A DNA stretch of 21,350 nucleotides from a virus. The notes beneath the pieces are model-generated. The model saw nothing but the letters and a program-made list of their open reading frames with translations, did no database searches and was not told the origin of the DNA. The DNA lies in IMG/VR virus record IMGVR_UViG_3300017782_000273, positions 1 through 21,350 of that record. One strand, 5' to 3'. Every line of letters begins with the position of its first letter. The first letter of the stretch is position 1. Made by a program: the position numbers and the translations under genes. Positions 9,654 to 17,196 of the stretch are shown piece after piece.

Positions 9654-10115
9654 ATGCCAGAAAATATTGAACGCAAACTAGGAATCTGGCTGGAACATAT
9701 CACAAAACCTCAGTCTGAGATAGGAAACTACAGCATTTGTCCTTTTGTAAAGAAGATGCCACCTGTAATCACTGCTGATAAGCTAGATATGGAACAGTTT
9801 GAAAACTTATCAGAAGAAGTTACGATCTACTGTGAAACAGAAGTAAATTCAACATTTACTGAAATAGACGAACTATGCAAGGCTCTTAATAACAAGTATG
9901 CAACTCACATATTTTTACCTGATCATCCACACAGGGAAACATTTATCAAAGGAGTAAAAACAGGAAACGGGTATGTACCTTTGATAATAGCACAAACCAA
10001 AAAAGAACTTTTGTCAGCTAGAGAACGATTAAGTAAGACTGACTACTATTCTTATTGGGACAAAGAATACCTAGAAGAGATATTTAATTATGGCGATATG
10101 GACAGAGTGGGATAA
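9654..10115 (+). CDS. Unknown protein with Cys-Pro-Phe motif, coupled to the amidinotransferase
   Basis: The 153-residue product has an N-terminal segment 'WLEHITKP' followed by 'YSICPFVKK' (Cys29-Pro30-Phe31). This recalls the 'W.e......g.CPFa' opening of the DUF1415 family, but the resemblance is short and I do not assign a function. AGGAAAA stands just before the ATG. Its last 26 bases overlap the start of the amidinotransferase gene in another frame, so the two are translationally coupled and probably act together. It is transcribed from the late promoter at 9608, so it is made with virion proteins. Confidence 0.8.
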   Translation: MPENIERKLGIWLEHITKPQSEIGNYSICPFVKKMPPVITADKLDMEQFENLSEEVTIYCETEVNSTFTEIDELCKALNNKYATHIFLPDHPHRETFIKGVKTGNGYVPLIIAQTKKELLSARERLSKTDYYSYWDKEYLEEIFNYGDMDRVG

Positions 10116-11160
10116 ACTTACAGATGTTATTGTTGGTGACTGCCACAGCCCTGGAAGTTTTGATCAGTTATTGCGTAGTAAGAGACCTAAGAAACAATTC
10201 AATCTAATACTTGAAGAAACAAAAGAAGATTTACTTGCATTAACTAACAAGCTAAAAAGTTATGGGTGTAATGTAAGACGTCCTGAAACAATCAAACCAC
10301 AACGTATTACATTACCTACGTTTGATATTAAGTTTCCTAACAGTCCTATAGTACCAAGAGATCAATACATTGTAATCAACGAAACAATATACCAAACATA
10401 CACTAGTTTAACTGATAGATACTTTGACGGGCACAGCTTTTATAATTGTTTTAACGATACTGGCTATAACTGGATATCACAGCCTAGTCCGCAACTTACT
10501 GATTTAGATCCAGCAACTAGATGGTGGAATGGTGGTAAGGAAATTTATCATAACCTATTAAAAGACAAGGTGTTATGGCATACTGCTACAATGTACAAAG
10601 CAGGTGACAAACTTATAACAAACACACAAGGTCCAGGCACACAAAAAGGACTAGAGTGGTGTAAGAAAAATATTACCGAAGTAGAGATAGTTGCTAATGA
10701 CAGTCCTGTAATGAACGGTTGGGGACATATTGATCATGGATTCTTTTTCGTAAATGATGAAACTATTGTTTGTGATAACATTGAGTGGGTACCAAGTTAC
10801 TTGCGTGACAAACAGATTATTGAGATAGGACATTTAACAAAAGATCATATGGGGCCACTTACTGAACACAAAGAAGATTTTAACAAGACAGAGGGTATGT
10901 ACAGCGAACAATGGTTAGACACTTATTTAGATAAGTGGAGAGGCTACGATCAAGAAATATCCTTTGACACTAATGTCTTAGTTCTAGACCATAACTGTGT
11001 TTTGTTTAGCAGAGAGATTCCTGAGCTGTTTGCGTATCTAAAAAAATATAAGATAGATTGTGATTATGTTCCTTTAAGACACGGCACATTTTTTGAAGGT
11101 GGTATACATTGTCTAACACTTGATGTTGCTAGAGAAGGTTTAAGAAGAGAAATATTCTAA
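10090..11160 (+). CDS. Amidinotransferase-like pentein enzyme
   Basis: The 356-residue protein resembles glycine (arginine:glycine) and inosamine-phosphate amidinotransferases, which move the amidino group of arginine to an amine acceptor through a covalent Cys intermediate. It opens with 'EWDKLTDVIVG', has 'VPRDQYIVI' (Arg90-Asp91), the His/Asp segment GWGHIDHGF (His213, Asp215), and the nucleophile loop FFEGGIHCLTLDV with Cys341, matching the GGG-x-HC-x-T-x-DV pattern of the family. Length fits (vertebrate enzyme ~390 after processing). The acceptor is unknown. It overlaps the preceding gene by 26 bases and runs convergently 21 bases into the oxygenase gene. All expected catalytic positions seem present, so it is probably active. 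A related guanidino-group enzyme such as a deiminase is less likely. Confidence 0.85.
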   Translation: MAIWTEWDKLTDVIVGDCHSPGSFDQLLRSKRPKKQFNLILEETKEDLLALTNKLKSYGCNVRRPETIKPQRITLPTFDIKFPNSPIVPRDQYIVINETIYQTYTSLTDRYFDGHSFYNCFNDTGYNWISQPSPQLTDLDPATRWWNGGKEIYHNLLKDKVLWHTATMYKAGDKLITNTQGPGTQKGLEWCKKNITEVEIVANDSPVMNGWGHIDHGFFFVNDETIVCDNIEWVPSYLRDKQIIEIGHLTKDHMGPLTEHKEDFNKTEGMYSEQWLDTYLDKWRGYDQEISFDTNVLVLDHNCVLFSREIPELFAYLKKYKIDCDYVPLRHGTFFEGGIHCLTLDVAREGLRREIF

Positions 11161-11697
11161 ATTAATAGTTGACATACAAGTCAATCTATAATGATCCGTA
11201 TAGTTCCAAGCACTATGTTTTGTACTAGGTAAGAAAGTTACCCATTCGCCTTCGGCTACAGCTACTTCCTTATTGTCAAACTTCATACCACATTTATGTA
11301 CGTTAGGTGATGGAATAACAACTCCGGCCAAACAATTAATAAACGGAACTTCCTTGCCATCAACTATAACTTCAGGATCAGTATGTGGCATAATGCGGCC
11401 ATATGGTTTTACAAAGTTCATTCCAAAATTTTCAACACCTTTGCACTCACTCAATATTTCTAATGTGTTTGAAAATTTATCTGCGTGTTCTACTGGGTCT
11501 TGGTTATCTCCTAGCTTTACAGCAATAGTACGCCAATTATCCTTAACGCCTGTGTTGTAAAAACTATCAAAATCCATACCAATTTGCTGTACTTTGCTGT
11601 AATCTGGCATAAAAGCATCAAGCTCTTGCTTTAACATAAGCCTAGCTTGTTCTAATTTTTCATAATCTACATAATTGGTTATTTTATAGTCAGCCAT
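11140..11697 (-). CDS. 2-oxoglutarate/Fe(II) oxygenase, Asp/Asn beta-hydroxylase-like
   Basis: This 185-residue protein has the iron-binding facial triad of the aspartyl/asparaginyl beta-hydroxylase family. HTD is at residues 105-107 ('RIMPHTDPE'), the distal His161 lies in 'TKHSAWNYTD', and Arg171 in 'HYRLT' would bind the 2-oxoglutarate carboxylate. Such enzymes hydroxylate amino-acid side chains or small molecules; the substrate here is unknown. Its 3' end overlaps that of the amidinotransferase gene on the other strand. No close Shine-Dalgarno box stands before the ATG: AAGGAG lies 19 bases away. T4-like marine phages often carry oxygenases of this superfamily, so the family is unsurprising; its neighbour is less usual. 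Confidence 0.82.
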   Translation of the reverse strand: MADYKITNYVDYEKLEQARLMLKQELDAFMPDYSKVQQIGMDFDSFYNTGVKDNWRTIAVKLGDNQDPVEHADKFSNTLEILSECKGVENFGMNFVKPYGRIMPHTDPEVIVDGKEVPFINCLAGVVIPSPNVHKCGMKFDNKEVAVAEGEWVTFLPSTKHSAWNYTDHYRLTCMSTINLEYFSS

Positions 11698-11777: not shown

Positions 11778-12647
11778 ATGTCAGAAATGAAACCAGGGAT
11801 TGGTGGAGCCAATCCGTTACAGAAATATTTTAGACAACCTAAGATATACGTAGCACTACCTAGTGGTGGTCATTGGTATCCGGAAGGCGCTTTGGAAATG
11901 AATGAAACCGGCGAACTTCCTGTATATGCAATGACGGCACAGGACGAACTAATGATGAAAACGCCAGACGCACTACTAAATGGTCAGTCGGTTGTTAGCT
12001 GTATACAAAGTTGTATGCCTAATATTAAAAATGCTTGGAAAATTCCTAGTATCGATGTTGACTGTATTTTAATTGCTATTAGGATTGCAACATATGGCGA
12101 AAAGATGGAGATTGAAACTAGAGTACCTAATGCAGGTACAGATCGTAAATTTGATCTCGACCTTAGACAGTTATTAGACAAGTATCAAAATGTCAAATAT
12201 GAAAATGAGCTAACAGTAGGTGATATGAAAATCACACTACGACCGCAAACATATCAAGAGTATACTAGAACAGCAACAAAAACTTTCGAAGAGCAACGTA
12301 TTGCTCAAGTGATAGCAGATGCTGAACTAGATGAAGGAGATAAGTTAGCTAGGTTTAGTGCTTCATTCCAGAAGTTGACTCAACTTACAGTTACTATGGT
12401 TGTAGATGGTATTGTATCAATCCAAGTAGGAGACGAGATTGTTACTAATCCTCAACACCTTCAAGACTTTATTAAAAATGCAGATAAATCATTCTTCACA
12501 GGAATCACAGAACATATGACTTCTCAGAAGAAAAAGTACGATGTTGATCCATTCTTGGTTCAAACAACTGCTGAAGAACAAGAAAAAGGTGCTCCTAAAG
12601 AGTTTGAAGTACCAATTACATTCGATCAGTCAAATTTTTTCGCATAA
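11778..12647 (+). CDS. 26: Baseplate hub / tail assembly protein (T4 gp26-like), zero-frame product
   Basis: The 289-residue product matches the pattern of the T4 gp26-type baseplate protein family. Diagnostic parts are 'QPKIYVALPSGGHWYPEG' near residue 20, 'YAMTAQDELMMKTPDALLNG' near 51, and 'PNIKNAWKIPSIDVDCILIAIRIATYG' near 81. T4 gp26 is shorter (208 residues). The gene has its own CATAAATA promoter and GGAG box, and is alone on the plus strand between two minus-strand virion genes. Its last codons lie on tandem slippery heptamers, and the -1 frame stays open for 76 more codons. The locus therefore probably makes two products, as tail-assembly chaperone genes of lambda, P2 and Mu do. The chaperone role is inferred. 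Confidence 0.88.
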   Translation: MSEMKPGIGGANPLQKYFRQPKIYVALPSGGHWYPEGALEMNETGELPVYAMTAQDELMMKTPDALLNGQSVVSCIQSCMPNIKNAWKIPSIDVDCILIAIRIATYGEKMEIETRVPNAGTDRKFDLDLRQLLDKYQNVKYENELTVGDMKITLRPQTYQEYTRTATKTFEEQRIAQVIADAELDEGDKLARFSASFQKLTQLTVTMVVDGIVSIQVGDEIVTNPQHLQDFIKNADKSFFTGITEHMTSQKKKYDVDPFLVQTTAEEQEKGAPKEFEVPITFDQSNFFA

Positions 12648-12683
12648 GGATCTTAAGTAAGTCTCTCGCCGAGATCCTGAGAT
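12632..12683 (+). promoter_or_regulatory. Programmed -1 frameshift signal: tandem slippery site plus pseudoknot
   Basis: Two overlapping heptamers of the X_XXY_YYZ type are in frame: A_AAU_UUU (12632-12638) and U_UUU_UUC (12635-12641). Five bases later begins a perfect 7-bp stem, AGGATCT (12647-12653) with AGATCCT (12672-12678). Loop bases GTCTC (12661-12665) can pair with GAGAT directly after the stem (12679-12683, one G-U), giving a classic H-type pseudoknot with loops of 7 and 6 bases. The zero-frame stop TAA is at 12645-12647. All elements have the spacing of known -1 frameshift signals. Confidence 0.8.
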
Positions 12684-12871
12684 TAGTCGATGACATGGAA
12701 AAAGAGACTAAGAACTTCAAACTTGAATTATCAAGACTTGTATGGTATATGCGTGGAGGTGTAACCCTTGACGAAATGTATGCTTCAGGTCCTGAGGATA
12801 GAGAAATTTTTAGTAAACTTATTAAAGAAAATTTAGAAACAGCTAAAAAGACTAGTATGCCTTTCTTTTAG
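12641..12871 (+). CDS. -1 frame extension of the gp26-like protein (frameshift product C-terminus)
   Basis: This frame is open from 12608 to the TAG at 12869-12871. After slippage it encodes 76 residues beginning RIRILSKSLAEILRLVDDME and including 'LVWYMRGGVTLDEMY', 'PEDREIFSKLIKEN' and the ending 'TSMPFF'. The whole chain would have 364 residues. The composition is that of a real helical protein, including the part before the first ATG (12695), which has no good Shine-Dalgarno sequence. This favours frameshifting over independent initiation. If it did start at 12695, it would be a 58-residue protein. The stop codon overlaps the stop of the convergent 860-residue gene. Confidence 0.75.
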   Translation, partial: RIRILSKSLAEILRLVDDMEKETKNFKLELSRLVWYMRGGVTLDEMYASGPEDREIFSKLIKENLETAKKTSMPFF

Positions 12872-15450
12872 GCAGTAGCTGGTTGTTTTTGTGTTAGACT
12901 TGCTTTTACTTTATCTTGTATACCCGCATCACTAATTTGTTTAGCTAGTGTAGGTAAATCTACTTTCATACCACTTGCAAGATCTCCACCGCTACCTGCT
13001 TTAGCTGGTTGCGATAGTTGTTGTTTAACAGCGTCAGCAACACCGGCCTTTTGTATATCGCCTGCTAATGATTTTACATCAACTGGTTTACCTGGAGTAG
13101 CACCTGCACCTGCTTTAGCACCACCTGGTACTATAGGTTTCTTATTTGCATGAGCTCCGCCTACTGCGGCTCCGCCAGCACCTGGTTTACCTAGTGTAGC
13201 ATCTTTTTCAGGCTCTATTGGCTTGCCTGTTTTGTCGTCTTTGCCGTCTTTGTTAGCATCAACTGGTTTAGTAATTGGCTTGCCTGTTTTGTCGTCTTTG
13301 CCGTCTTTGTTAGCATCAACTGGTTCTGCTTCTGCCCCAGCTTTGGGATCTGTACCAGCACTTGCTCCGGCATCATCTCCCGTATCAGCTTGAGGTCTTG
13401 CTAACTTAATGTTTGACTGTGTTCCAACTGTGCCAATGGCTTCATCGTCCATACCAGCATCACTTAAAATATTAATAATACTTCCTGTGTCTGTTGGCTT
13501 GCCTGCTTTGTTCCACGCCTTCATTAATTTTTCTTTTGTAACTTTGTTTCCAAGTTGTTTACCTTGATTCTTAATACCTGCGGCAGTTTTGCTTATGCCA
13601 CCTGCAACAGCGGCTCCGGCTTTGTCCATGCCTTTACCAACTTGGGTCATTCCTTTTTGTGTAAGGCTACCTGCTTTTTTAACGCCAGCCATTGCCGCCG
13701 CCTTCATTTTGTCTAGTGCAGGTCCTTCGTTCATTGTTTCTTCTAAGTACTCAACGTACTCGTAAATCATTTCGTTGTGTCGTTCTATTGACTCTTCTTT
13801 TTTCTCAGGCTCTACAAATTCTGATTTTGCTAATGCACCACCTAGTGCAACTGCCGCCGCGGCTTTTACAATGTTGGCCGCTGTATCGTTAACTGCTGTT
13901 TCCATTGAACCCGAAACTGTTCCTTTGAATATTTGATCATATAATTCTTCTCTTACATCATCTGGTAAAGCTTCAAGAGCCTTGTCTAGATTTTCTGTAA
14001 ATGGATTAGGATTTACAAACACATTTTTCATTTGGTAAACAGCATTTCCGTCTGCGTCTACACCTTCAATTGATACGTCTACTATTCCAGTGTATTCAGT
14101 TCCGTCTGGTAGTGTTTTACTAACTGTTGATTTAAATACCTCTCCAACTTTAATTTCGTCTGGTACACCATCAACCTGTAGGCTGTCTCCAACCTCTATA
14201 GAAGTTGACGCTGATATACGTGTGTTTAAGAATTCTTTTTGGTCTAATGCTCTGTTAAATCCTTGTGCATTTTGTAATGCTTCAATGTCTTCTTCTGACA
14301 AACCAGCATCTAATAATTTTTGTGTGTTTTCAGTAATCCATGCGTTGTCTGGAAAGTCTGCTGAATTTATTCCTGCGTCATTAAGTTGTTCTGCATCAAG
14401 CTCGGCAACAACTTCTGTATCTGATACTGTACTACCTGCGTCTTGGTTTGATGTGGTTGTAGTCTTATCTATGTTAACATCTGTACCTTTGATATCAAAC
14501 TCGCCTTGTATTGCATCAACAGAATCATTTACTGATGCACCACCTATTTCACGTATCTTATCATTTACCTGGTCAAGCTGTCCTTGTAAAACTTCTTCTG
14601 CATCAGCATCTAGGTTACCTCGTGCTAATAATTCTTCCATGGCACTTCTTGACTGTATGATCTCTTTGGCCGATTCAGCAGTTAGATCTTCCATGCTTGT
14701 AGCACTCATTCCGTCTAGTTTTGTAATATCAATTTCGCCTGATGCATCATTAATAAATGTGTTTGTAATCTCTGGCGGTAATAATTCACCAATTTGATCA
14801 CCAATAGCACCAGCCACCGCACCAAGTGCCGCGCCTTTAACACCTTTACCAACTGCTGTTGAAAGTTTATCACCTTTAAGTGTGTTACTTGCTAGTTTTA
14901 AAAAGAAACCAATTGCCGCACCACTTACAATACCTCCACTTGCAAACGCAAGTACTGAAGTCATTGCACCAATGATAAATGCCGCCTTGGCCGGATTGCC
15001 TTTTGCAAACTCTCCGTAACCATCGACCATTGTAAGTATCTTCTGGCCTGCTGGATTACCTTGTAGTTTCTTTTTTAATTGTGCTTTTAGTTTTTCAAAC
15101 TGTGCATCAAAGTTTTTAATTGGTCCACTTTGTTGTGCCGCATCGGCTAGTTTGTTAATTTGGTCTGTAAGTTTTTTAGCTTGGTCACCTACTACTTGTC
15201 CTGCCTTACCTAATGCAGTTTTGTTGTTGCCTGAATCTATTGCAACTTGTTCTGCATCACTAAAGATTTTATCAATCTGTTTAGGATCAAGATCAGCTTC
15301 TAATAATTTATTAAGTCCTTCTACTAAAGGCCAAACATCTCTTTCCCACTTACCAACATATATGCGTTGTGCTTCGTTAAGGTCTTGCCAACCTTCTGCT
15401 AGTATCTGTTCTGATTTTAAATTGTAGTGTGTAACTTCGCCTAGTTTCAT
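12868..15450 (-). CDS. Large low-complexity virion protein, probably internal to the head
   Basis: The 860-residue product starts MKLGEVTHYNLKSEQILAEG. This resembles T4 capsid-targeting sequences (MKTYQEFIAE in internal protein I), with LAE at 17-19 as a possible gp21 cleavage site. Residues ~160-225 form a glycine-rich, alternately hydrophobic region like glycine-zipper membrane segments. A helical and beta-rich middle follows, then an Ala/Gly/Pro/Lys-rich C-terminal third with two identical Asp-rich units (711-726 and 730-745). Two degenerate ~27-residue units (790-816, 830-857; V-D-x-x-S/T-L-A..I..AG) end the protein. AAGGA precedes the ATG. It follows the 184-residue gene after 10 bases. 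Ejection with the DNA is an attractive inference; the family is not recognised. Confidence 0.75.
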   Translation of the reverse strand: MKLGEVTHYNLKSEQILAEGWQDLNEAQRIYVGKWERDVWPLVEGLNKLLEADLDPKQIDKIFSDAEQVAIDSGNNKTALGKAGQVVGDQAKKLTDQINKLADAAQQSGPIKNFDAQFEKLKAQLKKKLQGNPAGQKILTMVDGYGEFAKGNPAKAAFIIGAMTSVLAFASGGIVSGAAIGFFLKLASNTLKGDKLSTAVGKGVKGAALGAVAGAIGDQIGELLPPEITNTFINDASGEIDITKLDGMSATSMEDLTAESAKEIIQSRSAMEELLARGNLDADAEEVLQGQLDQVNDKIREIGGASVNDSVDAIQGEFDIKGTDVNIDKTTTTSNQDAGSTVSDTEVVAELDAEQLNDAGINSADFPDNAWITENTQKLLDAGLSEEDIEALQNAQGFNRALDQKEFLNTRISASTSIEVGDSLQVDGVPDEIKVGEVFKSTVSKTLPDGTEYTGIVDVSIEGVDADGNAVYQMKNVFVNPNPFTENLDKALEALPDDVREELYDQIFKGTVSGSMETAVNDTAANIVKAAAAVALGGALAKSEFVEPEKKEESIERHNEMIYEYVEYLEETMNEGPALDKMKAAAMAGVKKAGSLTQKGMTQVGKGMDKAGAAVAGGISKTAAGIKNQGKQLGNKVTKEKLMKAWNKAGKPTDTGSIINILSDAGMDDEAIGTVGTQSNIKLARPQADTGDDAGASAGTDPKAGAEAEPVDANKDGKDDKTGKPITKPVDANKDGKDDKTGKPIEPEKDATLGKPGAGGAAVGGAHANKKPIVPGGAKAGAGATPGKPVDVKSLAGDIQKAGVADAVKQQLSQPAKAGSGGDLASGMKVDLPTLAKQISDAGIQDKVKASLTQKQPATA
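13217..13325 (-). repeat. Tandem 57-bp repeat encoding a DxNxDGxDD calcium-loop-like unit
   Basis: Two copies of a 52-base identical segment (13217-13268 and 13274-13325) recur with a 57-base period. In frame they encode VDANKDGKDDKTGKPI twice, separated by three residues. The D-x-N-x-D-G-x-D-D pattern is that of EF-hand-like or thrombospondin type 3 calcium loops. Perfect DNA identity suggests a recent duplication. Confidence 0.9.
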
Positions 15451-16773: not shown

Positions 16774-17196
16774 TTATTTGCCTTTTAGGCCTTCACGCAG
16801 TATCTTAGATCCACCTACCCTAACGTTTATAATGCCGTTGTAGTAGTCATCTGTTTCTAATACCCTACGTTCAAACTGTTCTCTTGCCTCTAAGTAACTT
16901 GCTATGCCTCTTGATTCACAGTAATATAGTATTTCTCTTGTAAACTTGTCTTCGCCTAATTGTTGTACGTCCTGTTGTAGGTGATCTGATGAACCCCAAT
17001 AGTCCTTCCAGTCACTTTCAACTTTACTTCTACGTTTATTCTTCTTACCTTTAAGAGGTGGTCTTGTTTTTTTAAACTTTGCTAGTTTCTTACCTATGTA
17101 TTTTCTATTGTTGGTTGTGTTCGTGATTAGATACACGAATGCTTCACAATCCTCTGGTAATGTTTCTATTGATTTGCCCTTATATGTCCATTGCAT
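16774..17196 (-). CDS. GIY-YIG-like nuclease
   Basis: The 140-residue protein has the two motif halves FVYLI (20-24) and KYIGKK (32-37), matching the GIY-YIG fold with a V-Y variant in the first half. A basic linker (36-58) leads to 'DWKDYWGSS' (62-70). A helix 'EDKFTREILYYC' follows, and a candidate metal-binding Glu at 103 or 106 lies in YLEAREQFE. The fold cuts DNA in homing endonucleases (T4 Seg family) and repair enzymes. It has no recognisable DNA-binding tail, being only the catalytic module. It is the last gene of the gp47-gp46 operon, 8 bases after the 70-residue gene, so a role in phage recombination is as likely as homing. Confidence 0.75.
   Translation of the reverse strand: MQWTYKGKSIETLPEDCEAFVYLITNTTNNRKYIGKKLAKFKKTRPPLKGKKNKRRSKVESDWKDYWGSSDHLQQDVQQLGEDKFTREILYYCESRGIASYLEAREQFERRVLETDDYYNGIINVRVGGSKILREGLKGK

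Follow-up and report, generated by a model that had tools for sequence, protein, structure and literature searches.

A conserved slip site and downstream stem point to -1 frameshifting in a gp26-type gene of T4-like phages

Results

The gp26-type baseplate gene of the window (the whole 21,350-base virus contig analyzed here) is, with high confidence, best explained as a gene with two products: a short form (TAC-N) and, through a programmed -1 frameshift, a fused long form of 364 aa (TAC-NC). A first-pass annotation, made from the letters of this DNA, had suggested that a gp26-like locus makes a short and a long form in this way, and each test that could be computed on sequence favored frameshifting. 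The argument is carried by a slip site, a stem, a reading frame under coding selection that has no conserved start codon of its own, and homology to T4 gp26 and gp51, all of them properties read from sequence. The coordinates are collected in Table 1.

Table 1. Features of the gp26-type locus in the window
Feature	Coordinates	Strand	Remarks
gp26-type short form (TAC-N), zero frame	11778..12647	+	289 aa, stop TAA 12645-12647
Upstream overlapping heptamer A AAT TTT, in phase	12632..12638	+	conserved in window clade only
Slippery heptamer T TTT TTC, in phase, conserved -1 slip site	12635..12641	+	three locus sets
-1 frame extension (TAC-C)	12641..12871	+	76 codons (12641-12868) plus stop 12869-12871
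5-nt spacer GCATA, heptamer to stem; holds start of zero-frame stop	12642..12646	+	
5′ arm of putative stimulatory stem (AGGATCTT)	12647..12654	+	compensatory changes
3′ arm of putative stimulatory stem (GAGATCCT)	12671..12678	+	compensatory changes; same helix in RNAalifold consensus
In-frame ATG of extension, not a conserved start codon	12695..12697	+	21/55 relatives

The short form matches the Pfam family T4_baseplate (PF12322, E=5.1e-12) and the baseplate hub family phrog_150 (E=5.4e-16), and its AlphaFold2 model (pLDDT 87.7) matches T4-like baseplate hub assembly proteins in BFVD. Elsewhere on the contig are capsid and portal genes of T4 type. Searching by tblastn with the short form returned 63 phage records, mostly of jumbo phages, and IMG/VR holds >500 relatives. 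In the 16 public loci that we read, jumbo phages repeatedly showed a T-rich slip site together with a homologous -1 extension; contig scans added further loci of the window clade, of jumbo phages, and of the cyanophage type.

The 3′ end of the zero frame reads TCA AAT TTT TTC GCA TAA, and both of the tandem heptamers noted in the first-pass annotation are present there and in phase. Conservation across relatives, however, extends to the second heptamer and not to the first. In-phase T TTT TTC is found in 199 of 202 related loci (92/94, 25/25, and 82/83 in sets of marine contigs, jumbo phages, and cyanophage-type T4-like phages, with near-duplicates included), the three exceptions being XacN1 (T TTT TTT), Mel-JY01 (C TTT TTT), and Cygsa01 (none). 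The codon immediately 5′ of it ends in T in all 199 cases, and the residue that this codon specifies varies (N, S, H, A, D, R, or Y). Since the A AAT that the first heptamer requires is present in most window-clade members and mostly absent from the jumbo and cyanophage sets, we take T TTT TTC alone to be the conserved slippery element. Beyond the 202 loci, the same heptamer occurs in Moby, S-PM2, and Vibrio D483; RL38J1 has T TTT TTG and HTVC008M has T TTT TTT. The proposed 5-base spacer is found as described, and the zero-frame stop does sit inside the signal, occupying the last bases of the spacer and the first base of the stem. In 89/94 loci of the window set and 81/82 of the cyanophage set, this stop ends 6 nt past the heptamer.

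The perfect 7-bp stem that had been read from the window (AGGATCT 12647-12653 with AGATCCT 12672-12678) was borne out, and it grows to 8 bp when the U-G pair 12654/12671 is counted. When a 12-pair helix was scored over 52 distinct window-clade sequences, 81% of its cells paired, compared to 76% after shuffling and 29-48% in slid controls. The same sequences contain 35 two-sided changes versus 16 in shuffled ones, and their covariation of 0.218, versus 0.133 shuffled, was reached by 0/500 shuffles; compensatory changes thus accompany the stem within the window clade. As the shuffles ignore relatedness, the slid controls carry more weight. RNAalifold recovers the outer six pairs. Folding energy was not above that of shuffled sequence (z of 0.70 for 86 nt and -1.03 for 41 nt), so the case for the stem rests on its conservation. 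Cyanophage loci possess a stem of their own at a similar distance from the heptamer, and in several relatives the best stem is different or weak.

An adjacent pseudoknot had been proposed as well. The underlying 7-bp pairing between the loop and downstream sequence (AGTCTCT 12660-12666 with AGAGACT 12703-12709) does exist in the window, but it is confined to the window and its two nearest relatives and breaks across the rest of the clade, and a conserved pseudoknot was therefore rejected.

The 76 additional codons of protein-like sequence claimed for the -1 frame withstood comparison with relatives. In 55/55 distinct window-clade relatives this frame contains 0 stops over its 76 codons, as opposed to 6.5 and 7.7 stops per sequence in the other two frames. 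For the codons past the zero-frame stop, dN/dS in the -1 frame is 0.146; other frames give values of 0.96-2.5. Whether coding begins ahead of the ATG at 12695 had been singled out as a decisive point, and dN/dS for 12647-12694 is 0.384 (bootstrap 0.27-0.50), indicative of purifying selection here too. The lower synonymous rate in this interval fits the presence of the stem. Judged by these substitution ratios, purifying selection acts on the extension as read in the -1 frame. Its stop overlaps the end of a convergent gene (12868-15450).

AlphaFold2 predicts the extension to be helical (pLDDT 87), with one helix running from residue 9 to 38. Pfam and PHROGs searches with the extension alone yielded nothing convincing. 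In tblastn, the extension by itself matches Atu_ph07 and Phosso over its full length, starting from the residue after the slip site and in the -1 frame. In four loci of the window set, the -1 frame runs on past the stop for no more than 4-30 codons. For three of these (L131, L132, and L148), the lengths indicate that the contigs end there; the fourth is Microcystis phage Mel-JY01, in which an extension-like stretch (2180-2467) is offset into the +1 (or -2) frame of the gp26-like gene, whose zero frame has C TTT TTT T close to its end.

The window protein, T4 gp26, and T4 gp51 all score above the cut-off for PF12322. T4 gp26 fills the T4_baseplate model to its end and terminates in ...EFFELL; in T4 gp51, residues 1-201 fill the model and 48 more residues follow. 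The fused frame of the cyanophage-type loci aligns to full-length gp51 over 78 columns that run across the slip junction (E 1.5e-4), and to the gp51 C-terminal tail with an E value of 1e-5, a score reached by 0/60 shuffles. A weak match to the same tail is seen for the window and jumbo extensions (E 0.005, 0/60 shuffles). From the way both T4 proteins fill the Pfam model and from the cyanophage alignment, T4 genes 26 and 51 resemble a short and a long form that are carried as separate genes. T4 would thus share family and short/long architecture with the window gene, differing in that it uses two genes where the window has one gene with a slip site.

These relationships agree with the tail-chaperone reading of the first-pass annotation, in that the short form is homologous to gp26 and gp51 and that gp51 resembles the fused long form. 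Both T4 proteins are described as hub assembly chaperones in an older review (PMC3004832). Searches of solved structures by sequence and by fold gave no chaperone among the matches listed, and the only fold match named a tail assembly chaperone was a weak one to a predicted structure, that of the phage K1H chaperone (E 0.056).

Discussion

We propose that the window gene encodes the tail assembly chaperone (TAC) of a marine T4-like phage. Ribosomes would for the most part stop at the TAA to release TAC-N. A fraction of them, probably held by the stem 5 nt downstream, would slip at T TTT TTC, both tRNAs (Phe-Phe) moving back by one base such that the stop is bypassed and 76 residues, a small helical TAC-C domain, are appended after residue 288. 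Slippage and its rate, a stimulatory role of the stem, and the chaperone role are all inferred. If the parallel with lambda gpG/gpGT holds, the two forms together would cover the tape measure protein and bring in tail tube subunits. The likeness to lambda is one of layout, a C-terminal domain being appended through a -1 slip close to where the short form ends. The slip site of lambda is G GGA AAG, whereas the window has T TTT TTC and a downstream stem.

The main competitor of this frameshift model holds that the downstream frame is a small gene of its own, translated either through initiation of its own or by ribosomes that reinitiate after terminating upstream, which is how many records of relatives annotate it (e.g., 'gp51' of S-PM2). 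A conserved start codon, which would have spoken for such a gene, was not found. The only ATG near the start of the extension, at 12695, is missing in 34/55 relatives, making separate initiation unlikely, and 11/55 window-clade relatives lack any start codon within the first 30 extension codons; in PA5oct and MIJ3, there is no ATG, GTG, or TTG within the first 45. The ATG at 12695 is residue 19 of the extension and falls inside the predicted helix, which initiation at this point would be expected to cut. Moreover, both homology and coding selection set in ahead of 12695, and a separate gene leaves the invariant in-phase heptamer unexplained. We therefore consider a stand-alone gene very unlikely, even though some observations speak for it. 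In the cyanophage-type loci (L039-L118), an ATG is present at extension codon 3, inside the 5′ arm of the stem, in 45/46 distinct sequences, and a free C-terminal domain could be made there by reinitiation. Cygsa01 (at 2809) and Ds9CZ (at 1607) lack T TTT TTC altogether and have an ATG overlapping the stop (TAATG), a sequence arrangement which suggests that coupled reinitiation takes the place of slippage in their groups. We entertain only as a tentative and rather doubtful idea that cyanophage-type loci combine the two, -1 slippage giving TAC-NC and reinitiation at the stem ATG giving free TAC-C, which would place them between the frameshifted and the two-gene arrangements.

Two other readings we regard as scarcely credible. 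That T4 gp51 is a single-frame, fused version might hint at one ancestral gene that a sequencing error or a recent frameshift mutation has split; against this, independent contigs, cyanophages, and cultured jumbo phages all repeat the -1 relation, and the slip site in them is intact. Likewise, the ordinary energy of the stem would be compatible with a -1 frame open by chance or non-coding, the stem belonging to some other RNA element such as a terminator or a regulatory hairpin, yet this fits neither the dN/dS and the absence of stops described above nor the presence of a homologous domain of 70-80 residues in distant phages.

As for earlier knowledge of such genes, the study of Vladimirov and colleagues reportedly identifies genes 26 and 51 by name and describes frameshifting for several groups of T4-like phages. 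According to what is relayed of this source (Vladimirov, Gautam and Davidson 2022, Virology 566:9-15), poly-T slip sites are known in T4-like TAC-N genes (Vladimirov et al. 2022, via PMC12846349), and some T4-like phages do without frameshifting and carry the short form and a fused long form as two genes (Vladimirov et al. 2022, via PMC10274946). A conserved -1 frameshift in TAC genes has also been described for Pseudomonas phage Adele, Vandenendeviridae, and Andersonviridae, which share with the window gene a conserved poly-T motif, an uninterrupted -1 frame, and a downstream ORF formerly annotated separately (PMC12846349). This, too, is a likeness of layout; these are other phage families, and their motif is GTTTTT (PMC12846349). 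Our search of the open-access literature for frameshifting in jumbo-phage tail chaperones found nothing. As far as these partly relayed sources go, frameshifting in the TAC genes of T4-like phages was known before, and the window gene is a well-supported new example rather than a new phenomenon.

The present analysis widens the range of the recoding signal, which now takes in cultured jumbo phages as well as a marine clade that is large and mostly uncultured. In the jumbo-phage records that we read, the C-terminal part either has no annotation or is listed as a separate gene, under the label 'hub assembly catalyst' or as hypothetical. Such records would be corrected by annotating a single gene that yields two products. 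The natural variants should also help in studying how T4 acquired separate genes 26 and 51. Small ORFs labeled 'gp51' or 'baseplate hub assembly catalyst' in the S-PM2 locus (1520-1693) and similar records seem to encode the C-terminal portion of a gp26-type protein made by frameshifting.

Three other genes of the window deserve mention. Beside the baseplate gene, 11140-11697 (-) encodes an aspartyl/asparaginyl beta-hydroxylase-like protein (PF05118, E 3.3e-13), and 16774-17196 (-) encodes a SegE-type GIY-YIG homing endonuclease domain (PF19835, E 2.8e-35). The 356-aa product of 10090-11160 (+) has as its sole match a PHROG of unknown function (phrog_25854); by eye, its C-terminal GGIHCLTLD stretch looks similar to amidinotransferase-type enzymes.
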